From Stenomitos rutilans HA7619-LM2 (GTDB lineage: Bacteria > Cyanobacteriota > Cyanobacteriia > Leptolyngbyales > Leptolyngbyaceae), in NCBI GenBank assembly GCA_019358945.1, contig JAHHIE010000045.1, positions 1 to 53,734 of the forward strand: a stretch of 53,734 nt of DNA, written 5' to 3'. Positions 2,823 through 48,868 of the stretch are shown here, piece after piece; positions within the stretch are counted from its first letter, which is position 1, and each line of letters opens with the position of its first letter. Both the position numbers and the translations under genes were made by a program. The notes under the pieces are model-generated. The model searched no databases. It was given only the letters and a program-made list of their open reading frames with translations, and was not told the origin of the DNA.

Positions 2823-3794
2823 ATGAAACCCGTACAGCCATCGGTTAGTTTGCTTCGCGCTCAGTCTTATGACCATACTCAACTGCGTCAAGCTCTGGAG
2901 GCGTTACTGGAGCCGCTGGGTGGCATGACAGCCTTTGTGAAACCGGGCGATCGCGTTCTCCTTAAACCCAACCTGCTCACGGGTGGTCGTCCGGGTAAGG
3001 AATGTGTTACTCGTCCAGAGATGGTTTACTGCGTGGCGCAGATGGTGCAAGAAGCGGGTGGCAAACCTTTCTTGGGCGATGGGCCAGCCTTTGGTAGTGC
3101 AAAGGGTGTGGCGAAAGCGAATGGTTATTTACCCCTGACAGAAGCGCTCAAGTTGCCGATCGTTGAGTTTCATGGCAGACGTTACGAAACGGTAGGCGCT
3201 GAGTTTAATCATTTACTACTCAGTAAAGAGGCGATCGAGGCCGATGTGGTGATCAACTTGCCGAAGGTCAAATCGCATATGCAGTTGACGCTCACAATGG
3301 GCGTGAAGAATCTCTTTGGGTGTGTTCCTGGCAAAATGAAAGCCTGGTGGCACATGGAAGCGGGTAAGGATCGGGATCGCTTTGGCGAAATGCTGGCCGA
3401 AACCGCACGGGCGATCGACCCCAATCTCACGATTCTGGATGGCATTATTGGTCATGAAGGGAATGGCCCCAGCGGTGGCGAACCTCGTCGGCTCAACCTC
3501 CTGGCAGCGTCACGGGATGTCTTTGCGCTCGATCGTGCGATCGTCGATCTTCTGAACGTCGATCCTGCGACTGTGCCAACCGTAGCGGCTTCTCAGCGCT
3601 TGGGACTCTGCTCAACCGTAGAAGCCATCCACTTCCCCTTGCTGCATCCTCAAGCACTTCAGATCACCGACTGGAAACTGCCCGATCACCTGATGCCGAT
3701 CGATTTTGGGTTACCTCGCGTCCTCAAATCCACCTTTCGCCATCTCTATATCCGCCTGATCAAAGAACCCATGCAGGCGTATGCAGAGCAATGA
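2823..3794 (+). CDS. DUF362 domain-containing protein
   Basis: The 323-residue protein matches the DUF362 family. It shows VKPGDRVLLKPNLL near residue 40, an RPEMVYCVAQMVQEAG segment, GDGPAFGSAKGVAKANGY, and the central ADVVINLPKVKSHMQLTLTMGVKNLFGCVPGKMKAWWHM block that is the family's hallmark. The C-terminal half carries ILDGIIGHEGNGPSGGEPR. Members have no settled biochemical role, though some DUF362 proteins are fused to 4Fe-4S ferredoxin domains. No Cys cluster is seen here. It is preceded and followed by repeat-rich intergenic DNA and so is probably monocistronic. Family membership is sure; function is not. Confidence 0.85.
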   Translation: MKPVQPSVSLLRAQSYDHTQLRQALEALLEPLGGMTAFVKPGDRVLLKPNLLTGGRPGKECVTRPEMVYCVAQMVQEAGGKPFLGDGPAFGSAKGVAKANGYLPLTEALKLPIVEFHGRRYETVGAEFNHLLLSKEAIEADVVINLPKVKSHMQLTLTMGVKNLFGCVPGKMKAWWHMEAGKDRDRFGEMLAETARAIDPNLTILDGIIGHEGNGPSGGEPRRLNLLAASRDVFALDRAIVDLLNVDPATVPTVAASQRLGLCSTVEAIHFPLLHPQALQITDWKLPDHLMPIDFGLPRVLKSTFRHLYIRLIKEPMQAYAEQ

Positions 3795-3799
3795 GCAGG

Positions 3800-3925
3800 A
3801 TGAGGGGTGAAGGCTAAATGGTGAAGGCTAAAGGCTAAAAAGTTGACCACTCCCTACTCCCTACTCCCGCCGCTTCCCCTGCCCCCCTTGTCCCCTTTCG
3901 CCCTGCCCCCCGCTCCCATTTACCC
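3800..3925. repeat. Intergenic short tandem repeats
   Basis: GAAGGCTAAA words are followed by CTCCCTACTCC and CCCCTGCCCC words. From 3795 to 4146 I see no convincing gene; the open frame beginning at 3957 has no family-like sequence and overlaps the better candidate at 4147. Confidence 0.6.
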
Positions 3926-15018: not shown

Positions 15019-15023
15019 TAAAG

Positions 15024-15409
15024 TGGAGCTGACGGGAGTCGAACCCGTGTCCGCCCTGGGTATTGGTACATCGCTCATTCACAGGCTTAGCTTCTCTGAT
15101 CCTCAAAGCGGGAACCGTCCCTTATCCCGGACAGTGGGATGCTCTGATAAAATCTTAGCCAAAAAGCCTACCAGAGAAAGCTTCTTGGAGCATCCGTTGG
15201 GGGTTGTCTATCATCCTTAACGGAGTCAGATGACAGACGCTCGAACCAGTTAGAGGTTGTTAGGCAGCAACAAGTGCTTGCTTACGAGCAAAAGGTACGA
15301 TGTTGTTCGCATGTACGTTGTTTTGAGCCATTGATTTATGAGAGTTAGCTCGCTCTCAGCCTGAATCACACTGTAGTGTTCGCCAAAACGTCGAAACCGT
15401 TGCAGCCCC
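15024..15409 (-). ncRNA. ssrA: tmRNA (transfer-messenger RNA)
   Basis: The RNA rescues stalled ribosomes by acting first as alanyl-tRNA and then as a template for a degradation tag. The 5' end GGGGCTGCAACGGTTTCGAC and the 3' end GGTTCGACTCCCGTCAGCTCC are the classic tmRNA termini, and GGGGCUG pairs with CAGCUCC in a seven-pair acceptor stem (one G-U). CCA is not encoded. The tag frame starts at 15310 and ends with TAA at 15262-15260, giving ANNIVPFARKQALVAA, a cyanobacterial-type tag ending in the usual Ala-Ala. Length is 386 nt. A TATAAT box lies 14-19 bases upstream (15428-15423). A CAST end follows upstream of the promoter. Confidence 0.96.
15390..15409 (+). other. Protospacer and PAM for the CAST homing spacer, in the ssrA 5' end
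   Basis: On the plus strand, GTC at 15390-15392 matches the 5'-GTN-3' PAM of type V-K Cas12k systems. The 17 bases that follow (15393-15409) match the solitary spacer at 15652-15668 at 16 positions; only position 10 differs (G in the target, A in the spacer). The protospacer ends exactly at the first nucleotide of mature tmRNA. Confidence 0.75.
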
Positions 15410-17867: not shown

Positions 17868-18056
17868 GAAAGACTCCTCAGCTATCCCAGAGACTCTTGC
17901 ACGAGTAGTAAAGACTCTTCGGACACTCCCAAAGCCTCTCGCGTGAGTATCGAAGACTTGTGAGTAAGTATCAAACACTCAACAACGAGTAGTAAAAACT
18001 CTCCAGACTATCCCAAAGACTCTCCAGCCACCCTCAAAAACGTTTTGAGACAGTTC
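17868..18056. repeat. Degenerate 21-bp tandem array, array B
   Basis: Nine units of exactly 21 bp run without gaps. Typical units are AAAGACTCTTCGGACACTCC(C) and AAAAACTCTCCAGACTATCC(C), with consensus AAAGACTCTCNNNNGAGTATC. Stops occur in the frames seen, so it is unlikely to be coding. It lies between murE and the glutaredoxin-like gene, directly after pair B. Confidence 0.8.
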
Positions 18057-18177
18057 AGAACGCCTTCAACGTGCCTCCAACTTTATCCTTTTCCTTCTCC
18101 TACCCTCTACCTTCTGCCCTCTGCCCTCTGCCTTCTGCCTTCTGCTCTCTTTTCCCGCCTTCTTCTCTCCCTTCTCC

Positions 18178-18564
18178 CTACAAATACCGCCGCAACATCT
18201 GCTCCAACTGCTGCACCGTTGCACGCGGTGATGGACGAGGAAGAGGGATGAGGGATGAAGTTTTGAGTTCTAAGCTTTGAAATGCTCCCCCTGCCTCTGC
18301 TTCCCCTGCTTCCCCTGCTTCCTCTGCTCTCTCTGCTGCCTTCCCCGCTTCTTGACTCCTGACTCCTGACTCCTGACTCCTCTTCTCCTTCACCAATACC
18401 AGCACCGGAACCTCATACTGATACACCTGGAACCAATCATCACGAGTGGTAATGTCCCGCACGTCCAGAACTAAATCGAAGCTCTTGATCTGCGTGAGCT
18501 TTTCTTGCAGTCCTTCACACAAATGACAGCCCGGCTTGCTGTAAAGAATTAGATGAAGGCTCAA
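18178..18564 (-). CDS. Glutaredoxin-like protein with an expanded repeat insert
   Basis: The 128-residue product begins LILYSKPGCHLCEGLQEKL, with the redox pair C13-H-L-C16 of the glutaredoxin-like DUF836 family. Such proteins are normally about 80-90 residues. Here residues about 61-107 (KRSQESGVRSQEAGKAAERAEEAGEAGE...) are low complexity and are encoded by CTGACTCC and CCCTGCTTC heptamer repeats of the kind found between genes. The C-terminus SPRATVQQLEQMLRRYL returns to family-like sequence. The insert is in frame and adds about 45 residues before the final helix. Function is probably thiol redox; effect of the insert is unknown. Confidence 0.75.
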   Translation of the reverse strand: MSLHLILYSKPGCHLCEGLQEKLTQIKSFDLVLDVRDITTRDDWFQVYQYEVPVLVLVKEKRSQESGVRSQEAGKAAERAEEAGEAGEAEAGGAFQSLELKTSSLIPLPRPSPRATVQQLEQMLRRYL

Positions 18565-18714: not shown

Positions 18715-19446
18715 ATGACCCAATCTACGAAGCCGCTTATTCAACCTACCAGCCTCGACCTGAAAAAACTCAACCAGCGTTTTGAGAACGCTCATCCTAG
18801 AGATATCCTTGCCTGGAGTGTCGAGAACATCCCTACAGGGTTGGTGCAAACCAGCGCGTTTAACGTCGATGACATCCTGATTACCGATCTGTTTTACCGA
18901 GAACTCAAGCCAGCTACACCCGTACCCGTGCTGTTTTTAGACACGCTCTTTCACTTCCCCCAGACACTAGAGCTAGTTGCCAAAGCCAAAGCCTTATACA
19001 ACCTTGACTTAAAGATCTACAAAACGAACGAAGCGAATAGCCGCGAAGCCTTTGCTGCCAAATACGGCGAAGCCTTGTGGGATGCTGATATCGCCAAGTT
19101 TCATCAAGTCACCAAAATTGAGCCACTTCAGCGAGGGTTGGCAGAGCTAGGTGCGATCGCCTGGATTACCGGACGTCGCCGCGATCAGGCAAATACTCGT
19201 GCCGATATGCCGATCTTTGAAATCGATACGCAAGAGCGGCTGAAGATTAACCCGATCGCCAACTGGACGCGCAAAGAAACCTGGGCCTACGTGTTTGAAC
19301 ACGATGTCATTTACAATCCACTCCACGACCAAGGCTACCCCAGCATCGGCGACGAACCCATCACCACAGCTATTGCTGAAGGTGAAGACGAACGCGCTGG
19401 ACGCTGGCGGGGGATGGGCAAGACAGAGTGCGGCATCCATATTTAG
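18715..19446 (+). CDS. cysH: Phosphoadenylyl-sulfate reductase
   Basis: CysH reduces PAPS to sulfite with thioredoxin or glutaredoxin as donor, in assimilatory sulfate reduction. The 243-residue protein has the PP-loop type fold: SAFNVDDILITDLF with VLFLDTLFHFPQT, then WITGRRRDQANTRADM, and the C-terminal active Cys in ECGIHI. The paired Cys motifs of iron-sulfur APS reductases are absent, so PAPS is the likely substrate. A glutaredoxin-like gene lies head to head, 150 bp away, which may be functionally relevant but is not proof. Repeats follow the stop codon. Confidence 0.95.
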   Translation: MTQSTKPLIQPTSLDLKKLNQRFENAHPRDILAWSVENIPTGLVQTSAFNVDDILITDLFYRELKPATPVPVLFLDTLFHFPQTLELVAKAKALYNLDLKIYKTNEANSREAFAAKYGEALWDADIAKFHQVTKIEPLQRGLAELGAIAWITGRRRDQANTRADMPIFEIDTQERLKINPIANWTRKETWAYVFEHDVIYNPLHDQGYPSIGDEPITTAIAEGEDERAGRWRGMGKTECGIHI

Positions 19447-19600
19447 GGAATCGGGAGTGGGGAGTGGGGAGTAGGGTAGAAAGGCTGAAGGCTGAAGGCT
19501 AAAAGAGACGAGAGAGAGTAGAGGGGAGAGGGGTCAGACTCAAACCTTAGAACTTGAAGCTAAACGCTAAAACACCTCACTCCTCTCTTGAAACTCAAAA
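19443..19600. repeat. GGGAGTGGGGAGT / AAAGGCTGAAGGCT tandem repeats
   Basis: Short tandem words GGAGTGG and GCTGAAG fill the gap between cysH and the SDR gene. Similar repeats occur within coding sequence in murE, valS and the glutaredoxin-like gene. Confidence 0.65.
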
Positions 19601-23486: not shown

Positions 23487-25406
23487 CTACAGCGCAATCC
23501 CCCAGGCTGCCAAAACGGTTTTAATGCCTGCCGTAATGGTGGGCAAGTATTTCTCAGAGAACTCCAGCAGCCCATTGCCACGCTTGACGATCGTCGGCAA
23601 CGCATCCAACGCATCACCTGCGCGTTCCAGCAGATCAGGATTTTTACGATCGCCCCCCAACTTTGCGATCGCATCGACATGCTTCAGCGCTTTCTCTTTG
23701 TCTTTTGCGTCCAAGCCAGCGTCGGGTGTTTCGATCGCCGTTTTCAATTGCTTCAGCAGGTCTGCCAGCTTCAGTGCGTCAGGGTCTTTGGTGGCTTCCA
23801 ATTGACCGAGGGTGAGGGTGAGCGTGCCGCTGATGTCGCCGCCTGCTGCACCCGTGATTTCTTTGCCTGCCACGCCGCTATTGTCGCCGCCTACCAAACT
23901 ATTAATGCCGCCTGTCACGTTGTTTAGTTCGATGTTGCTGCGTTTGTCTGACATAGGATCTCCTGTGAATTGAGCGTTGGGAGCGTTGAGGATTGGTCTG
24001 CTGAATTGGTCGGTTTGATGATAAACGAAGCCTTGCAAGAACACGGATTGCTCTCGATAGACGGTGAGTTGCCCTTCAGCATGGGCTAACTTTTGCTGCG
24101 CTGCCTGCTCTGCTTCTCGTGATGCCGCCAGTTGTTTATGCAACTCGTAGTCGTGCGTAAACTGCGCGTGCATTGGCGCTTTGTCCGCTTCAGGATTGGC
24201 AACGGCTAGTTTGACGAACCGATTGCCATCGCCTACATCCACCAGCGAATGCAGCGACAAGCCTGCATCCTCGTACTCCGTGAGCAAATTTCGCAGTGCT
24301 ACATCAAACGCCTGCGGTTCAATGCCATTGTGAAAAAGAAAATCGAGCGTATTTGAAACCAATGTATCTGAGAACTGGCGCACCAGCTTCGCAAAATCTC
24401 CTGGCTGGAAGATACCGCTGGCAGGTCTACGTTCTTGCTGGTTTGGTTCTAAATAAATGTAGTCACAACGCACATCATTGAAGCGAGTCGCGGCATTGAT
24501 TCCCCAATGTTGAATGCAGGCTCCGGTTAAGACAGCATGAGAAAAATCGGTGCCTAATGCCTGTGTGCTTTCTAAGTGGGCGTGTTTTAAGTTAGCGTTC
24601 TGCAAATTCGCATCATTCAAGTTTGCCCTCAGTAAATTAGCGCCCTCTAGCTCAACCCCTGCCAGGTGAAGGCGCTGTAAGTTGACTTGGCTGTAATCTT
24701 GACTGCAACCGTTGCGGCTTGTGCAGAGTGCCCGGATGGTGTCATTAAAGTCGTTGGGGAATTTGCATCGAGCAAACGAGACGTGAGTCCAGTCCACAAA
24801 GTCAAGGGTTGCATTTGAAAAATCAGCATTATGAATAGTGGCATCAGAAAACCTTGCATTGGTCAGATCAGCAGCCTCGAAGATAGTGCCACGTCGATAG
24901 CGAATCGTTTTGATTTGCTCTCTAAACCAGTAGATGGCGAATCCAGCAAAGAGAATTGCAACACTACCCCCAGCAATGCCTTCCGCTATTGCGCCTCTGC
25001 AAAAGGCAGAGATTGCAGCGATAGCGAGAGCGCCAGCGACGACGACAGCAATAGCGAAAAGGACAACGCCAGTGCCAGTGCCAGCGACAACGACAGCGAA
25101 AACGCCAGCGACGGCGAAAAGGACAACGGCAGCGACAGCGAAAAGGGCAACGGCAAAGGCAGCGATGCCATTGGTAGCTAAAAAGACAGCGAAACCGACA
25201 ACGAGAACGAAAATTTCAACAAACTGGAGTATAAGTTGCTTACGGCTTTGCCCAGTTTTAACTTGCTGAAAGTCTGCGCCTGCTAACATAGCATCGCTGA
25301 AATTGCAGCCTCGGATGTCAGATTTGCTGAAGTTTACGTCTGCAAGGTTTTGCTGCTTGAACGATCGGTTTTGCAAATCTTGCTTATGGTAGTGCAGTTG
25401 GGGCAT
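23487..25406 (-). CDS. Membrane pentapeptide-repeat protein
   Basis: The 639-residue protein starts with pentapeptide-like repeats (LANVNFSKSDIRGCNFSDAMLAGADF, about 20-46). It continues with a very hydrophobic region of about 58-165 built from Ala, Val, Phe and Gly (AVALFAVAAVVLFAVAG), enough for four or five membrane helices. More pentapeptides occur at about 175-305 (ANLLRANLNDANLQNANLKHAHL). The C-terminal third has a helical part, then NIELNNVTGGINSLVGGDNSG and a domain with GGDISGTLTLTLGQL that ends in LPTIVKRGNGLLEFSEKYLPTI. I recall this tail from cyanobacterial signalling or defence proteins, but its role is unknown. The membrane part is encoded by GCGACAGCGAAAAC-like DNA repeats. 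Confidence 0.75.
   Translation of the reverse strand: MPQLHYHKQDLQNRSFKQQNLADVNFSKSDIRGCNFSDAMLAGADFQQVKTGQSRKQLILQFVEIFVLVVGFAVFLATNGIAAFAVALFAVAAVVLFAVAGVFAVVVAGTGTGVVLFAIAVVVAGALAIAAISAFCRGAIAEGIAGGSVAILFAGFAIYWFREQIKTIRYRRGTIFEAADLTNARFSDATIHNADFSNATLDFVDWTHVSFARCKFPNDFNDTIRALCTSRNGCSQDYSQVNLQRLHLAGVELEGANLLRANLNDANLQNANLKHAHLESTQALGTDFSHAVLTGACIQHWGINAATRFNDVRCDYIYLEPNQQERRPASGIFQPGDFAKLVRQFSDTLVSNTLDFLFHNGIEPQAFDVALRNLLTEYEDAGLSLHSLVDVGDGNRFVKLAVANPEADKAPMHAQFTHDYELHKQLAASREAEQAAQQKLAHAEGQLTVYREQSVFLQGFVYHQTDQFSRPILNAPNAQFTGDPMSDKRSNIELNNVTGGINSLVGGDNSGVAGKEITGAAGGDISGTLTLTLGQLEATKDPDALKLADLLKQLKTAIETPDAGLDAKDKEKALKHVDAIAKLGGDRKNPDLLERAGDALDALPTIVKRGNGLLEFSEKYLPTITAGIKTVLAAWGIAL
25015..25160. 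repeat. Tandem DNA repeat encoding the membrane segment
   Basis: Imperfect repeats of GCCAGCGACGGCGAAAAG-type sequence lie inside the pentapeptide gene. On the coding strand they give alternating Ala, Val, Phe and Leu. It suggests that the transmembrane region grew by repeat expansion. Confidence 0.6.
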
Positions 25407-25494
25407 GGGGGCGCAGAGCAGTGGGTGCAGCAGGCTTCTCGTTCATTATTGCCTTGCCAAAAGATTTCGTCATCATAGTGGTCAGGGCTGACGC

Positions 25495-25527
25495 AAACCT
25501 CGGAGATTTATAAAACCTCCGAGGTTT
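25495..25527. repeat. Paired palindrome, pair D
   Basis: AAACCTCGGAGATTT (25495-25509) and AAACCTCCGAGGTTT (25513-25527) are only 3 bp apart, closer than the other pairs. Array D starts about 40-66 bp downstream. Confidence 0.8.
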
Positions 25528-25567
25528 AGTCCGGGACAATCCTGATGCATTGCCATACATTGCGATC

Positions 25568-25824
25568 GGATCACGATTCATTACAAATGGATCGGGTCAC
25601 ATTACCAATCGATCGGGTCACAATCCTTCTGCATTGCGTCGCATTGGCATTGTGTCGGGTCACAATCCTTGTGTATTGCCCCACAATGCTGTTGTAATGG
25701 GTCACATTGGCAATGTATCGCCTCGCAATCGCATTGTGTTGGGTCACGTTGCTTTTGTATGGCATCACAATGCTTCTGCATGGACTGACATTGCTTCTGC
25801 ATGGACTGACATTGCTTTTGTTAG
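25568..25824. repeat. Degenerate 21-bp tandem array, array D
   Basis: From 25594 to 25824 there are eleven units of exactly 21 bp, such as GGGTCACAATCCTTCTGCAT(T) and GGGTCACATTGGCAATGTAT(C). An irregular unit precedes them from 25568. Several frames on both strands remain open because the unit has few stops, giving heptapeptide-like reading frames (for example MQKQCQS, MQKHCDA), which I take as by-products. Its right end lies 80 bp before valS. Confidence 0.85.
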
Positions 25825-25903
25825 CTCGACGCGCCATCCCGTTCGCATCCCAACCGCGCGTCGTGGCAGAATGTATCAAAGTTAAACACACGTAGCTGCT
25901 CCC

Positions 25904-28717
25904 ATGACCGCCGCAACCCCAAATCTGCCCAGCCAATACGACCCTGCAACCGCCGAAGCCAAATGGCAGCATTTATGGGAGGCAAACGCGGTCTTCAAAG
26001 CTGACCCCAATCATCCCGGCGAACCGTACTGCATCGTGATTCCGCCGCCCAACGTCACGGGCAGCTTGCACATGGGTCATGCCTTCGAGCATTCCTTAAT
26101 TGATGTGCTGATTCGCTATCACCGGATGCTGGGGCGCAACACCCTCTGGCTACCGGGCACCGACCACGCCAGTATTGCCGTCAGCACCATTCTGGACAAG
26201 GAACTGAAGGCGCAGAAGAAAAAGCGGCAGGATGTGGGGCGAGAGGCATACCTGAAACGCGCCTGGGAGTGGAAAGAAGAATCGGGCGGCACGATCGTCG
26301 GTCAATTGCGCCGTTTGGGGCTGTCGGTAGACTGGTCGCGGGAACGTTTCACGATGGACGAAGGCTTGTCTGAAGCGGTGGTAGAAGCGTTTGTGCAACT
26401 CTATGACGAAAAGCTGATTTATCGCGGCGAGTACCTCGTCAACTGGTGCCCTGCCACGCAATCCGCCGTGTCGGATACCGAAGTGGAGAACCAGGAAGTC
26501 AACGGGCATCTGTGGCATTTCCGCTATCCCCTTACGGATGGGTCTGGCTTTGTGGAAGTGGCAACCACACGCCCCGAAACGATGCTGGGCGATACGGCTG
26601 TGGTGGTGAATCCCAACGACGATCGCTACAAATCTCTAATCGGCAAAACGCTGACCTTACCTCTCGTGGGTCGGCAGATTCCCATCATTGCGGATGAGTA
26701 CGTCGATGCCACCTTTGGGACGGGTTGCGTGAAAGTCACCCCTGCCCACGACCCCAACGACTTTGAAATGGGCAAGCGCCACAACCTGCCGTTCATCAAC
26801 ATCATGAACAAAGACGGGAGCCTGAACGAGAATGCAGGCGCGTTTCAGGGACAAGATCGCTTTGTGGCGCGGAAGAACGTCGTTGCGCAGTTGGAGTCAG
26901 AAGGCTTCCTGGTCAAAACTGAGGACTACAAGCATACGGTGCCCTATAGCGATCGCGGTAAGGTGCCCGTTGAGCCGTTGCTTTCAACCCAGTGGTTCGT
27001 CAAAATTCGCCCGATGGCAGACCAGACGCTGGAGTTTCTGGATGGTCAGCAGTCACCCGCCTTTGTGCCCGATCGCTGGACGAAAGTGTACCGCGATTGG
27101 CTGGTGAGCCTGCGCGACTGGTGCATCTCGCGCCAACTCTGGTGGGGGCATCAAATTCCGGCCTGGTATGCCGTGAATGAAACAGGCGGCGAGATTCAAG
27201 ACAACACGCCGTTTGTGGTGGCACGGAATGAGGCAGAGGCAAGGGAAAAGGCGATCGCCCAATTCGGTGCAGACGTTAAACTCGTCCAAGATCCCGATGT
27301 GCTCGACACCTGGTTCTCATCGGGACTGTGGCCCTTCTCCACGCTCGGCTGGCCCGAACAAACCGCCGATCTCGCGCGCTACTATCCCACCACCACGCTC
27401 GTCACAGGGTTCGACATTATCTTCTTCTGGGTCGCCCGTATGACCATGATGGCAGGGCACTTCACCGGAAAAATGCCCTTTCAAACCGTCTACATTCACG
27501 GCTTGGTGCGGGACGAAAACAACAAAAAGATGTCCAAATCCTCCAACAACGGTATCGATCCACTGTTGCTGATCAACAAATACGGCACCGATGCGGTACG
27601 CTATACCCTCATCCGCGAAGTCGCAGGGGCAGGGCAGGACATTCGCCTGGAATACAACCGCAAAACCGACGAATCCGCCACCGTCGAAGCCTCCCGTAAC
27701 TTTACGAACAAGCTGTGGAATGCATCCCGGTTTGTGTTGATGAATGTGGGGAGTGGGAGTTTGGGAGGCAGGGAGGCAGGGGAGGCAGGGGGCAATAATC
27801 AAGAACCTTTTCATCCTTTATCCTTTATCCTTCATCCTTCATCCTTCACCCCCACACCCCACACCCTCGAACTCGCCGATCGCTGGATTCTCTCTCGCTT
27901 CCACCAGGTGACGCAGCAAACCCGTGACGCGATCGACCATTTCGGTTTAGGAGAAGCCGCCAAAGGGCTGTATGAATTTATCTGGGGTGATTTCTGCGAC
28001 TGGTATATCGAGCTAGTGAAGCCGCGCTTACAGGGCGATGATGCTGAGTCCAAACAGACGGTTCAACAGGTGCTAGTCTTCGTTCTGGAAGGCATTCTCA
28101 AGCTGCTGCATCCGTTCACACCGCATATTACAGAAGAGATCTGGCATACGCTGACGCAAGCAGGCGACGATCGCTATCTGGCGCTGCAACCCTATCCTGA
28201 GTCGGATACTAGCCTGATCGATCCTGAACTAGAGCAACAGTTTGATTTGCTCATCGGCACCATTCGCACCATTCGTAACTTGCGTGCCGAAGCGGAGATC
28301 AAGCCAGCGGTGAAAGTGACGGCGATTTTGCAGACTGAGAGCGATCGCGAACAGCAAATCCTTAATGCAGGTCAGGCTTACATCAAAGACTTGGGGAAAG
28401 TAGAAACGCTGACCATCACGACCATCAATGATGCCGCGCAGGTAGCTACCGATGCGTCTCAGGCGATCGCGGGTGTAGTCGGCACGGTGCAGGTGGTGAT
28501 TCCACTGGCAGGTGTCGTTGACTTGGGAGCACAACGCATTAAGATTGAACGCGATCTAAAACGGGTGGAGGCGGAAATTCAATCTCTCTCTGGTCGTCTC
28601 AGCAATCCGGGGTTTGTCAACAAAGCGCCTGCGGATGTCGTTGAGAACGCACGGGCAACCCTGGCAGAAGCTGAGAAACAAGCAGAGCTTTTGGGCGATC
28701 GGCTCAGCAAACTTTAG
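25904..28717 (+). CDS. valS: Valyl-tRNA synthetase with in-frame repeat insert
   Basis: ValS charges tRNA(Val). The 937-residue protein has the class I signatures HMGH (56-59) and KKMSKS (K542-S546), the GTDHASIAV segment, and an editing domain with [16 protein letters not shown] and HDPNDFEMG. The C-terminal coiled coil ([17 protein letters not shown]) is present. Residues about 614-656, [18 protein letters not shown] then [17 protein letters not shown], are low complexity and are encoded by GGGAGGCAGGG and TCATCCTTTATCC repeats of the intergenic type. They lie exactly at the junction of the catalytic core (ASRFVLMN) and the anticodon-binding domain ([12 protein letters not shown]). The frame is intact. 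Confidence 0.95.
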
Positions 28718-36889: not shown

Positions 36890-39800
36890 CTAGAACGGAA
36901 AGTCTCCAAGCGGTGGTCGATCGCGCCCTAACTCTCGCAGGGATGACCCCATTTTCGCCTCAATAATGCGCTGGATGCCCTGCTCTACGTTGAGCCACGC
37001 CCTATCTTTATTGGACCAGTCGGTAATCGGGTTGAGATCAAGGGGGAGTGCCTGAATGCTGATGCCGAGTTTTGAGTGGAACAAGTCCCAGTTGACCGGA
37101 CGGATCAGGATGGGCACCACCGTTGCCCCGCCTGCCTTGTGTCGTTCCAGGGCGCGAGTCATTTCGCGGTTGAAGCAGTAGTCAGAGTTGATGAAGTCGG
37201 GGCTGATGAGCAGCAGAATGATGTCGGCTTGCTCCAGGTTAGTGTCGAGTTCTTGCTGCCAATCTGCACCTGGCATAATGCGCCGATCGTGCCAATTTTG
37301 GATCAAACCATAGCGCTGGAGCAGCTTGAGATGCACTTCGAGTTCGTCGCGCAACAGTTCGTCCTGGTGAGAGTAGCTGTAGAACAGCCGCAGGGCAAGC
37401 TTTTCTTTGTCGGCTAGGCGGGTAGGCTTGCGGATGCCATCCAGATCCACGCCATTGAGCAACTCACGGACGTTGACCGTGAGCAAGCGTTTGCCTGTGA
37501 AAATATCGAAGGTGGTTTGTCCATGCTCCTCGCGCATCAGCAACTCGTTGTAATCAACGGAAACGTCTGGATGTTCAGGTACGGGCACCTTTTCTAGTGG
37601 TTTGAACTTGAAGCTGCTGTGGATGCGATCGAAGTCGTAGCGAATCACAGCCAGGAGGCGACGGCGGCTGTTGAGCGTCCCGTTGATGCTGATGGTGACG
37701 CAGCGGTCGACGCGATCGGCTTTGACCAGTGCCCGATTGCCCTCCAGGGTGAGCATGACACCCGTGCGCCAACGGTCTTGGGGCGTACTCAACACGTGGG
37801 TACGGACGATAAAGCGGGGCAGCAGTCCTTCGGGCAGGATGGGATACTCGTAGCGAAAGTTAAGGCATTCGGCAACATCGAAGTCTTCGGCGATCGGGGG
37901 CTGCTGTTTGTCGAGCAGGTCGGGGATGAGGTAGCGCCCTTCCTCTTCGGGGAAGCGAACGCATAGCTCAAATTTCCGCATCAGTTCCAGCAAAAAGCCG
38001 TGACGTTCGGGAGGGTACGCCGTTTGGTCGAGGATCTGCGTTAGACAGGCGATCGCCAAGTCGCCCTTTGTATCAGCAAGGGTGTGGGCGTTGAGCAGTT
38101 GGTAAATGCCGCGCGTGACCCAGTGGGGATTGAGCACATGGGTATCGCGCAGGCGGGGGTCGTCTTTATAGTTGAGGGCGATGCCGAGGCTGTGGAGGTG
38201 GATTGCCAGCGAGTCTTGAGCGCTGCGATTGGTTTCACCGTCCTGCTGGCAGACGTGGCGGAACTGCTCAAAGGAGATGTAGTTCTCTCGCATGTCGGTC
38301 AGGCGCTGTTTGATGGCAACCCAACTGGCGGGAAAGGGGGCACGCAGATGCTCCAGTTGGTCGGTTTCGCGCTCAATGGCAGCCTGGAGTTGATCCAGTC
38401 CCTGCTGGGTATGGCAATCGGTGGCAATGAACTCACGAATGTTGGGAAACTTTTGCCGGAGAGCGCTGCGGTTCACGTCAAAGGGGTGTTCCTGCACTTT
38501 GTTGAGCACTACCAAAACGGGGGAGTTGCCGCCAAAGCTCTGGATTAACTCTAGCCAGTATTCGGCATCGGTGTCTTCGTGCCCTTGCCGACCGTTGAGC
38601 ACCAGCAGATAGAGGCTGCGTTCGGTGAGGAAAAACTGATGGGTGGAGTGCATAATTTCCTGCCCACCAAAGTCCCACACGTGGAGGGTAATGTCTTCGG
38701 TGTCGTGCAGCCGCAATTGCCAGGGGGTAATTTGGATGCCTTCGGTCTTTTTGGAGTCGGGGTCGAAGGTTTGGTGAAGCAGGCGGTTGACGAGGGAGGT
38801 TTTGCCCACGTTGCCGTACCCCACCAGAATGAGCTTGGCTTCGTTGAGGGGTTGGCGCTCTGCCTGGATGCGGAAGTAATAGTCCAGAATGGCTTGAGGA
38901 CTGGCTGGTGTAGCGCCTTCACTGATCTCTCGATCTGTGGGTCCAAGAATCTCGTCAGAAAGACCGAGTGGCTCATTGCCGTGCAGCAAGAGTGCCTGCA
39001 AGTGGGGCAGTTCCGTTAAAAACGCTGGCAGATCTGTGAGCGCGTTATCGTTTAAATCAAGCCGTTCTAGCCGGACGAGCTGAGCAATCCAACCCGGCAC
39101 ACTCGTCAGTTGATTTTGGAAGAGGTAAAGCTGCGTTAGCTTAGACAAGCTGCCCAACGACTCGGGCACACGCGTTAATTGATTTCGATCAAGGGTAAGC
39201 CACATCAGCTTGGATAGATTGCCTAGCGATTCGGGCACACGCGTCAGTTGATTTTGGTTAAGGGAAAGCCCCGTCAGGTTGGACAGATTGCCTAGCGTCT
39301 CAGGCACACGCGTCAGTTGATTTCGGGAGAGGTAAAGCTCCGTCAAACTGGACAGGTTGCCCAACGTCTCAGGCACGCTCGTCAGTTGATTTTGGGCAAG
39401 GGAAAGCGCCGTCAAATGGGACAGGTTGCCTAACGTCTCGGGCACGCTCGTCAGTTGATTTCGGGAGAGGGAAAGCACCGTCAAATGGGACAGGTTGCCT
39501 AACGTCTCGGGCACGCTCGTCAGTTGATTTTGGTAGAGGTCAAGCGTCGTCAACTGGGACAGGTTGCCCAGCGACTCGGGCACGCTCGTCAGTTGATTTT
39601 GGTAGAGGTCAAGCCGCGTTAACTGGGTGAGTTGGTCGATCGCCTCTGGAATACGAGACAAGCCCAACCGTGATAAATCTAAAAAAGTGGCATTGCTTCG
39701 TCGTGCCTCTTGTATCCGTCGCTCTGCTTCTGCCAGCGGATCGTCATACTGCCACTCTCCTTCAGGCACAATGTCTTCTGGCAGCAGGGTTAGCGCGTGA

Positions 39801-39991
39801 GCAATGGCAACCACATTCGCTCTACTCACCCGCTTGCCCCGCTCCGGTTGCCACAAGCGCCTCGCAGTATCGGTACTTACCCCTGCCCGTTCGGCAATGG
39901 CAGCGGTTGTCAGATTCAACCGTTCCTTGGCATCGTTTAAGCGCTCTACACCTTCCGGGCTGGCGAGAAAATTGCGTGGGTTGTCGGGCAT
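36890..39991 (-). CDS. HTH-LRR-Roc-COR-TIR protein
   Basis: The 1033-residue protein begins at the ATG at 39991 (MPDNPRNF); an upstream start at 40081 would only add repeat-encoded residues. Residues about 10-65 are a lambda-repressor-like helix-turn-helix (LTTAAIAERAGVSTDTARRL). Residues about 95-345 are eight to ten 23-residue leucine-rich repeats (NLSxLTxLxLxxNQLTxVPE). The Roc GTPase has the P-loop GYGNVGKTS (Lys 397), WDFGGQE (switch II) and LNKVQ in place of NKxD. The COR dimerisation domain follows, and a TIR domain (about 868-1000) has FYSYSHQDE and SDYCFNREM, whose Glu could be the NADase residue. Fused TIR and DNA-binding domains suggest signalling or phage defence; this is inference. 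Confidence 0.9.
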   Translation of the reverse strand: MPDNPRNFLASPEGVERLNDAKERLNLTTAAIAERAGVSTDTARRLWQPERGKRVSRANVVAIAHALTLLPEDIVPEGEWQYDDPLAEAERRIQEARRSNATFLDLSRLGLSRIPEAIDQLTQLTRLDLYQNQLTSVPESLGNLSQLTTLDLYQNQLTSVPETLGNLSHLTVLSLSRNQLTSVPETLGNLSHLTALSLAQNQLTSVPETLGNLSSLTELYLSRNQLTRVPETLGNLSNLTGLSLNQNQLTRVPESLGNLSKLMWLTLDRNQLTRVPESLGSLSKLTQLYLFQNQLTSVPGWIAQLVRLERLDLNDNALTDLPAFLTELPHLQALLLHGNEPLGLSDEILGPTDREISEGATPASPQAILDYYFRIQAERQPLNEAKLILVGYGNVGKTSLVNRLLHQTFDPDSKKTEGIQITPWQLRLHDTEDITLHVWDFGGQEIMHSTHQFFLTERSLYLLVLNGRQGHEDTDAEYWLELIQSFGGNSPVLVVLNKVQEHPFDVNRSALRQKFPNIREFIATDCHTQQGLDQLQAAIERETDQLEHLRAPFPASWVAIKQRLTDMRENYISFEQFRHVCQQDGETNRSAQDSLAIHLHSLGIALNYKDDPRLRDTHVLNPHWVTRGIYQLLNAHTLADTKGDLAIACLTQILDQTAYPPERHGFLLELMRKFELCVRFPEEEGRYLIPDLLDKQQPPIAEDFDVAECLNFRYEYPILPEGLLPRFIVRTHVLSTPQDRWRTGVMLTLEGNRALVKADRVDRCVTISINGTLNSRRRLLAVIRYDFDRIHSSFKFKPLEKVPVPEHPDVSVDYNELLMREEHGQTTFDIFTGKRLLTVNVRELLNGVDLDGIRKPTRLADKEKLALRLFYSYSHQDELLRDELEVHLKLLQRYGLIQNWHDRRIMPGADWQQELDTNLEQADIILLLISPDFINSDYCFNREMTRALERHKAGGATVVPILIRPVNWDLFHSKLGISIQALPLDLNPITDWSNKDRAWLNVEQGIQRIIEAKMGSSLRELGRDRPPLGDFPF
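39060..39640. repeat. Nearly identical 69-bp coding repeats in the LRR
   Basis: About eight consecutive 69-bp units share GTCAGTTGATTTTGG and GACAGGTTGCC(TA)AACGTCTC at the same spacing, with only a few substitutions. High identity points to recent duplication of the LRR. Confidence 0.75.
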
Positions 39992-40129
39992 GACGTGAAG
40001 GAAGGGATAAGGGATGAAGGATGAGGATAAAAAAGTAGACTCTTTACTAGCAGCAGGGCTGAGGCACGATAGCTGTCCCAACGGTCTCTTCGGTTGCTAT
40101 CGATCTGGCGCAAACTATAGCCGTTCCTC

Positions 40130-40194: not shown

Positions 40195-40286
40195 CGTTCA
40201 AAGGGTTTGTTCACGCCTGTTATAGCCTTATTTTTTCTCTTGTAGGCAACGGTTCGCATGGCGATCGCCGTTTAATTTGGTATCAA

Positions 40287-40496
40287 ACTCGATGCGATCG
40301 TTGTGTTACTCAATTCGATCGTCGTCAAACTCGATGCGATCGTCGCGTTACTCAGTTCGACCATCGTCATACTGGATTCGATCGTCATCTTACTAAGTAC
40401 GAGCGTGATGTTAGTCGATGCGATCAGCGTGTAACTCGATTTGATCATTACCTAACTGAGTGCGATCGACGTGTGACTCGATGCGATCGTGATCAT
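40287..40496. repeat. Degenerate 21-bp tandem array, array E
   Basis: Ten units, each exactly 21 bp, start with ACTCGATGCGATCGTTGTGT(T) and ACTCAATTCGATCGTCGTCA(A). The consensus is ACTCGATGCGATCGTCGTGTT. One frame reads as a heptapeptide repeat (RCDRRVT, QFDRRQT), but start and ends do not suggest a real gene. The gap 39992-40866 holds no supported gene. Confidence 0.85.
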
Positions 40497-40866
40497 CCAA
40501 ACGAAGTGCCGCCCATTTCTAAACTGGTTTGGACTTTGCACCTACGTTTGCAGCCAAACCACCGACAACGCGAGATTGAATTGAAATCATGAATTCAATT
40601 ACATCAGCAACTCCAATTGTGAGGGCTTAGCATTTGGCAGGTATGCTTTCAGTGGTGGCAGAGTTTTTTGCCCAAATGCCAAGCCCCTACAAGAATAGAA
40701 TTGTAACTTTGTAGGACTTAGCTTAAACGGAGAGCGATCGCCTAGAGAAAAACAACGAAAAAGTTTTTATCTTTTCTTTAGATTTTACTCAATTTCACTC
40801 AGGTTAGGCGATTGGCACGATCGATAGAGTGTAAAGGTACGTTGATTTCTACCAGAGGACTTTACG

Positions 40867-48666: not shown

Positions 48667-48868
48667 TCGTGTGGGAGAGGGTGCAGGGGGTTGGGGCGTG
48701 GGGTATAGGGTGTGGGGAAGCGGAGGAGGCAGGGGAAGCAGAGGAGGCAGGGGAAGTAGAGGAGGCATGAGGCAGAAGCTAAACTCAAAACTTCCTACGC
48801 CCTACGCCCCTTCTACAACTCAAAACTTTCCCCGCTCCCCTGCTTCTTCTGCCCTCTGCCTCCCTACG
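48667..48868. repeat. GGAGGCAGGGGAAGCAGA tandem repeat and CTCAAAACTT words
   Basis: GGAGGCAGGGGAAGCAGA is repeated nearly three times, preceded by GGGGTGTGGGG words. It is the same repeat kind that is translated inside valS and the glutaredoxin-like gene. Confidence 0.7.

Follow-up and report, generated by a model that had tools for sequence, protein, structure and literature searches.

Slippage and mobile elements are the usual explanations for the noncoding repeats of bacteria. Among cyanobacteria, heptanucleotide repeats go by the name of STRR. The small dispersed repeats (SDRs) of Nostoc, which Elhai and co-workers are said to have described in 2008, reportedly form dispersed families of 21-27 nt, single mobile units that have a hairpin-like symmetry in common despite their unrelated sequence. 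Iterons, the direct repeats of plasmid replication origins, lie about two helical turns apart and are bound cooperatively. The accessible parts of the literature contain TAACTGA arrays as an instance of the cyanobacterial heptanucleotide repeats (PMC4679880), a citation of the SDR work of Elhai et al. 2008 (PMC3116915) and accounts of MITEs and REPINs (PMC3116915, PMC10969869).

The DNA analysed here (the window, 53,734 nucleotides) is contig C37 of the 7.28 Mb draft genome of Stenomitos rutilans HA7619-LM2, called G000 below; G001, G002, G003, G006 and so on are the genomes compared with it. Between a pentapeptide-repeat gene and valS lies a tandem array (array D; Table 1), with units such as ACATTGCTTCTGCATGGACTG and ACAATCCTTCTGCATTGCGTC. 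The exact 21-bp period described by the first-pass annotation stands, as does the 3-bp distance between the two neighbouring palindromes; its count of eleven units has to be raised to about 14 (13.6 by HMM), the first few being more diverged than the rest. The period far exceeds chance: mean identity is 0.60 at lags 21, 42, 63 and 84 and 0.20-0.32 for every further period in the range 15-30, and none of 1000 dinucleotide shuffles reached the observed identity at any period of that range (largest value 0.34). Judged by ValS, the nearest named relative among 80 retained loci is Leptolyngbya sp. FACHB-321 (91% identity), whose valS upstream region resembles that of G003.

Table 1. Coordinates of array D, its surroundings and the other 21-bp arrays of the window
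Feature	Position	Strand	Pfam	Remarks
Pentapeptide-repeat protein gene, 639 aa	23487-25406	-	PF00805	Neighbour of array D
Intergenic region holding array D and palindromes	25407-25903			Between pentapeptide-repeat gene (-) and valS (+)
Copy D, remnant of the element read as a MITE	25484-25532	.		Both palindromes between left end AGGGCTGACGCA and right stub AGTCC
First 15-bp palindrome	25495-25509	.		AAACCTCGGAGATTT, one mismatch
Second 15-bp palindrome	25513-25527	.		AAACCTCCGAGGTTT
Array D, family F2	25536-25829	.		Some 14 units with an exact 21-bp period; orthologous arrays precede valS in G001 and G006
valS, valyl-tRNA synthetase, 937 aa	25904-28717	+	PF00133, PF10458	Neighbour of array D
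21-bp array, different consensus (ACTCGATKCGATCGTCGTCAA)	40282-40500	.		About 10 units; orthologues in G006 and G004
21-bp array, family F1 (GACTC/GAGT)	17872-18050	.		8 to 11 units

Arrays of this kind are dispersed in the genus. Repeats were scanned in 442 kb of G000, in 400 kb of G002 and as much of G003, and in 200 kb of each of two further genomes, G011 and G028; the G000 stretches were mostly picked around palindromes, which biases their array density, and those of the other four genomes were not so picked. The sampled noncoding tandem repeats of the genus mostly have a unit length of 7 or 21 bp. By fundamental period, the nine noncoding repeat regions of G000 comprise eight of 21 bp and one of 42 bp, the 19 of G002 ten of 7 bp, six of 21 or 42 bp and three others, and the four of G003 one of 7 bp, one of 21 bp and two others, while the 200 kb of G011 yielded none and those of G028 two, of other periods. 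At least four families of unrelated sequence have the same 21-bp period and recur at many intergenic sites: F1 (20 arrays, 298 units), F2 (10 arrays, 89 units, array D included), F3 (12 arrays, 161 units) and F5 (6 arrays, 84 units). Arrays outside them include that at 40282, L067, L078-L081 and L103. An array has 13.8 units on average (range 6-21, 58 arrays).

The distribution is uneven. Arrays are many in G000, G001, G002 and G006 and very few in G003, which belongs to the same genus, so that the arrays are dispensable. Of 42 genomes examined from the order, 10 carry F1, namely six of the seven in this genus (not G003) and four in three other genera. Upstream of valS an array was found in 4 of 24 genomes, the G005 locus being too short to tell. 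There is none at this place in G003 and G004, and G002 (L046/L078) carries a 21-bp array of AACGATCGTTCCTGTTTGA type, with a consensus unrelated to that of array D. Different arrays have few distinct units in common (5 of 277 in F1, 0 of 88 in F2, 3 of 129 in F3 and 0 of 82 in F5), and for this reason we rejected the idea that units had spread from array to array as exact copies. Searches of F1 and F2 against plasmids, and of F3 against phages only, gave no match. A noncoding 21-bp array mixed with other repeat units was also seen outside the genus, in an uncultured Nostoc MAG (L159 20013-20321).

The intergenic placement of the arrays has no promoter bias. Genes were called from the length of open frames alone. 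Of the 50 arrays for which both neighbours could be called in this way, 14 lay between divergent, 6 between convergent and 30 between same-direction genes; the baseline is 28% divergent, 18% convergent and 54% same direction for intergenic bases, and 40, 19 and 47, respectively, for 106 gaps of at least 350 bp. A promoter-associated operator array is therefore not favoured.

Among the papers listed from an incomplete literature, none describes such arrays. Like the STRR heptamers they are intergenic and abundant, occur in the same genomes and keep a fixed unit length; the heptamers, however, have a nearly uniform unit of 7 bp, whereas the units here measure 21 bp and are heterogeneous, and the shortest period that scores within 0.05 of the optimum is 21 or 42 rather than 7. 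Regions of period 7, of the common cyanobacterial heptamer kind, lie in the window at 2672-2804, 3785-3917, 18049-18181, 19439-19571, 27738-27870 and 48677-48809. The arrays resemble the Nostoc SDRs as reported in unit size, in their cyanobacterial host, in forming dispersed families and in a symmetry kept despite unrelated sequence. The SDRs, however, are reportedly single mobile units, whereas here the units stand in long, in-phase tandem arrays with no conserved ends seen. With iterons the arrays have in common direct repeats in phase, about 20-22 bp apart, but they occupy many sites per genome and belong to several unrelated families. Iterons lie beside a replication initiator at a single origin; array D has the pentapeptide-repeat gene and valS as neighbours and no replication initiator gene beside it.

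The period is held even though the units vary widely, as the first reading of the sequence had proposed: 49 of 58 fitted arrays have no indel at all, and about a quarter of the bases depart from the consensus. A cyclic HMM that allows indels placed none in 35 of the 40 arrays fetched by similarity, a mode of sampling that favours phase-regular arrays, and 7 steps in all over their 12,080 bp. In the 18 first-found arrays it placed none in 14 and 5 steps over 5,094 bp, two of them 1-bp insertions in L080 and the rest in three other arrays, giving 12 non-unit indel steps over the 58 arrays. Those numbered L260-L299 were selected by their similarity to four arrays and represent those families only. 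Mismatches of the 40 similarity-fetched arrays to their own consensus, counted gap-free with the five indel-bearing arrays included, amount to 3082 of 11,697 bases (26.3%).

Comparison of orthologous arrays points the same way. Six such comparisons contain six internal whole-unit length changes (five of 21 bp and one of 42 bp), one internal 1-bp length change and 245 substitutions; the orthologues gain or lose whole units. Six comparisons of flanks contain 197 substitutions and about 10 indels, a number reduced from 13 raw runs of gaps because some of these fall at the ends of alignments, and none of the indels is a multiple of 21; non-unit indels thus differ between arrays and flanks (1 against 10, Fisher p 0.003). 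Gaps of 18 and 1 (array D, G000/G001), of 5 and 28 (40282 array, G000/G004), and of 7, 36, 69 and 26 stem from where the sequences were cut, the unit events there having been read separately, and the right flank of the 40282 array in G000/G004 could not be cut and was left out of the flank comparisons. Substitution is no slower in the arrays (14.6-26.1%) than in the flanks (7.8-29.3%), which argues that constraint falls mainly on register. Columns conserved in the other arrays of a family changed between orthologues at 52 of 365 sites and the remaining columns at 105 of 399 (p 3.6e-5 pooled; p 0.014, 0.46, 0.81 and 0.0005 singly, two of the four pairs being significant). This slower change suggests some constraint on sequence as well, an effect that unit turnover moving existing variants could mimic.

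Our preferred reading, which we advance tentatively, is that array D is one of many intergenic, helically phased DNA scaffolds in which register is constrained above sequence. Twenty-one base pairs equal two helical turns and seven codons, as had been pointed out for this array; the helical turns fit better, and for the codons no frame is open throughout in three of four families. Quasi-repeated sites held two turns apart would face the same side of the helix, and a putative DNA-binding protein, or a filament of one, might read them cooperatively. A unit out of phase would be selected against, single-base and whole-unit changes would be tolerated, and unit number would vary through slippage or unequal recombination, the palindromes being a separate, MITE-like remnant next to the array. 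As the family consensus sequences are unrelated, one sequence-specific protein could not read them all. A broader proposal, which we consider rather unlikely as it stands, is that the arrays are lineage-specific elements of chromosomal architecture, phased scaffolds of about 300 bp in several independent sequence families, under selection for helical register and not for sequence, that would nucleate or anchor putative DNA-binding filaments organising or insulating the chromosome. That several unrelated families converge on a unit length of two turns, and keep it through sequence drift, offers a test set up by nature of whether selection can act on the geometry of DNA, and the arrays are numerous and variable enough between close relatives for explanations by selection and by mutation to be directly testable.

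The main rival, and a real possibility, although we lean away from it, is a functionless mutational satellite. An extruded quasi-palindromic unit would stabilize slipped strands and make the array grow or shrink in 21-bp steps, and the phase would only seem to be kept, through unit-wise copying and conversion between units that removes odd lengths. Such a satellite agrees with the whole-unit events between orthologues, with the quasi-palindromic units of several sequence-unrelated families, with the missing bias towards any gene orientation, with the lack of visible common array flanks and with the very few arrays of G003, and the heptamer arrays demonstrate that copying of fixed units does occur in these genomes. 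It also agrees with an array of G002 (L080 15376-15816) that has two 1-bp insertions in a seemingly duplicated segment; they resemble a single insertion copied along with its segment. However, it leaves unexplained why unrelated families all have units of 21 bp rather than anything from 18 to 25 bp, and why indels are so few at a consensus divergence of about 26%. The period common to unrelated families and the scarcity of indels lead us to favour the scaffold over the satellite; the scattered families, the incomplete symmetry and the near-absence from G003 keep the satellite alive.

Quasi-palindromes are frequent among the units, their axes following one another every 10.5 bp; GACTC...GAGT of F1 is an example. 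Against column permutation, the dyad symmetry of 19 arrays gives a combined Z of 6.9; singly, 8 of the 19 reach p <0.05 and 11 are not significant, and two coding 21-bp arrays used as controls gave p 0.70 and 0.23. On the best axis of each family, and with no permutation test applied to these values, bases pair in a proportion of 0.59 (F1), 0.58 (F2), 0.59 (F3) and 0.37 (F5) of those compared; F5 has no clear symmetry axis. Taken with the patchy covariation described below, the symmetry fits symmetric half-sites in DNA better than stems in RNA, but it is not common to every family. Curvature at 10.5 bp was rejected, as the A/T content of the 19 arrays has no raised harmonic 2 at that period. 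The fourth harmonic (5.25 bp) of A/T-G/C content is raised in these arrays, and also in one coding control.

It is improbable, in our view, that the array acts as a structured or regulatory RNA with one small hairpin per unit. Besides the dyad symmetry, Watson-Crick covariation at three pairs of F1 (z 3.8, 2.5 and 5.1) and weaker covariation in F2 (double changes, z 2.3-3.0) speak for such an RNA. However, covariation is absent on the main axis of F3 and takes the form of isolated pairs in F5, in both directions, and the unit-level covariation of the 19 arrays combined is z 0.24, to which one array whose reading crosses a phase shift contributes with z -5.4; L080b was read across a 1-bp phase shift in both the dyad and the unit-covariation tests. 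Folding is only slightly better than that of column-permuted sequences (mean z -0.76 for 18 arrays on both strands, the strands being alike), and Rfam finds nothing in the window but tmRNA, the gene of which lies at 15021-15409 (-).

The first-pass annotation had treated the palindromes and the array as one composite element, and we find it very improbable that they form a single mobile element. The idea draws on the palindrome-guided sample of G000, in which a palindrome is at most 130 bp away from 9 of 11 noncoding arrays, and on the 12 of 50 arrays with either a palindrome or a terminal repeat no more than 150 bp away; random windows of 600 bp, drawn from genes as well, contain one or the other in 8.7% (G000) and 4.5% (G002) of cases. 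Two array families gave 8 and 21 match rows in G000, and dropping four rows that adjoin others left 25 arrays of F1 and F3, three of them already in the sample and some matches being short (53-100 bp); a palindrome lies within 200 bp of 4 of these 25 (p 0.006), and within 150 bp of only 3 of 40 arrays of other genomes (p 0.12). The expectation in both cases, 3%, is an estimate made without simulation from the genome-wide palindrome count and an assumed intergenic share of 20%. Against a composite, the orthologue of array D upstream of valS stands without palindromes in G001 and with them in G006, the orthologue of the 40282 array in G004 has none, the palindrome pairs at 2214/2267 and 20480/20531 of the window adjoin no array, G002 has many arrays and few palindromes, and the array flanks reveal no common ends by eye. 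A larger mobile element carrying the array was likewise rejected, the flanks being unlike by eye save for orthologues and the ends of some F2 arrays. The palindromes and the array are two separate things, and their description as a composite reflects mainly adjacency. The excess of palindromes near G000 arrays may come from an insertion preference or from long intergenic gaps common to both, with no fixed composite.

We read the palindrome pair as the core of a dispersed miniature transposon (MITE), of which copy D is a truncated remnant. At up to one mismatch, AAACCTCNGAGGTTT occurs at 131 places in the genome (5 for the reversed control), and 13 of the 39 genomes examined have exact matches, all but one of these 13 belonging to this family. 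The palindrome is usually paired, at a spacing of about 50-54 bp within an element some 100 bp long. Five pairs lie in the window, four of them spaced by 50-53 bp. Several copies of the element end in the terminal inverted repeats AGGACTTACGCA/TGCGTAAGTCCT, and these or near copies flank palindrome pairs, but not all pairs. Over about 1.44 Mb of stretches, clear 5-bp target duplications accompany 5 of 8 terminal-repeat pairs, 2 of which enclose palindromes (L022, with a target duplication, and L027, without). The pair resembles MITEs and REPINs in being short, dispersed and made of paired palindromes, with terminal inverted repeats AGGACTTACGCA, and perhaps in the 5-bp target duplications of some copies; it differs in that copy D is truncated, the array is no part of the element and no autonomous partner turned up in the stretches searched, the same 1.44 Mb containing no terminal-repeat pair (up to one mismatch) 300-3000 bp apart. 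Of its two ends, copy D retains a degenerate left one (25484-25495) and, on the right, a stub of 5 bp, with no target duplication seen. Its 18-bp palindrome spacing is common to the G006 orthologue (L137) and so is probably an inherited internal deletion.

Related stretches were noted elsewhere. A 295-bp stretch (L031 4500-4794) has the terminal repeats of the MITE and a 5-bp duplication. Inside an F1 array, a 110-bp element with MITE ends (L021 8480-8589) has F1 units on both sides and the 5-bp duplication AAAGA. At the 40282 locus of G006 a third palindrome adjoins the pair (L125 1473-1529), and the pair with its neighbouring DNA is identical to that of G000 over about 100 bp.

That the array encodes a heptad-repeat protein, with 21 bp as seven codons, is extremely improbable: frame +2 of F2 is open in 10 of 10 arrays and F2-family arrays carry a weak codon signal (p 0.09, 0.11 and 0.04), but the best frame is open in only 7 of 20 arrays of F1, 8 of 12 of F3 and 1 of 6 of F5, the F2 frame with the most variable third positions is open in 3 of 10, codon conservation in the other eight noncoding arrays tested gives p 0.11 to 0.93, and coding is not supported, codon-level conservation being not clearly above column-permuted controls in a low-power test that gave no better than p 0.054 for a genuine coding array used as positive control.

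Repeats of other kinds adjoin the arrays of the window. A 6/12/24-bp repeat lies at 25016-25165, within the pentapeptide-repeat gene next to array D. The gene at 36890-40081 (-), whose start adjoins the 40282 array, encodes a Roco-type protein with leucine-rich repeats, Roc-COR and a TIR domain (Pfam), and it carries a 69-bp coding repeat.
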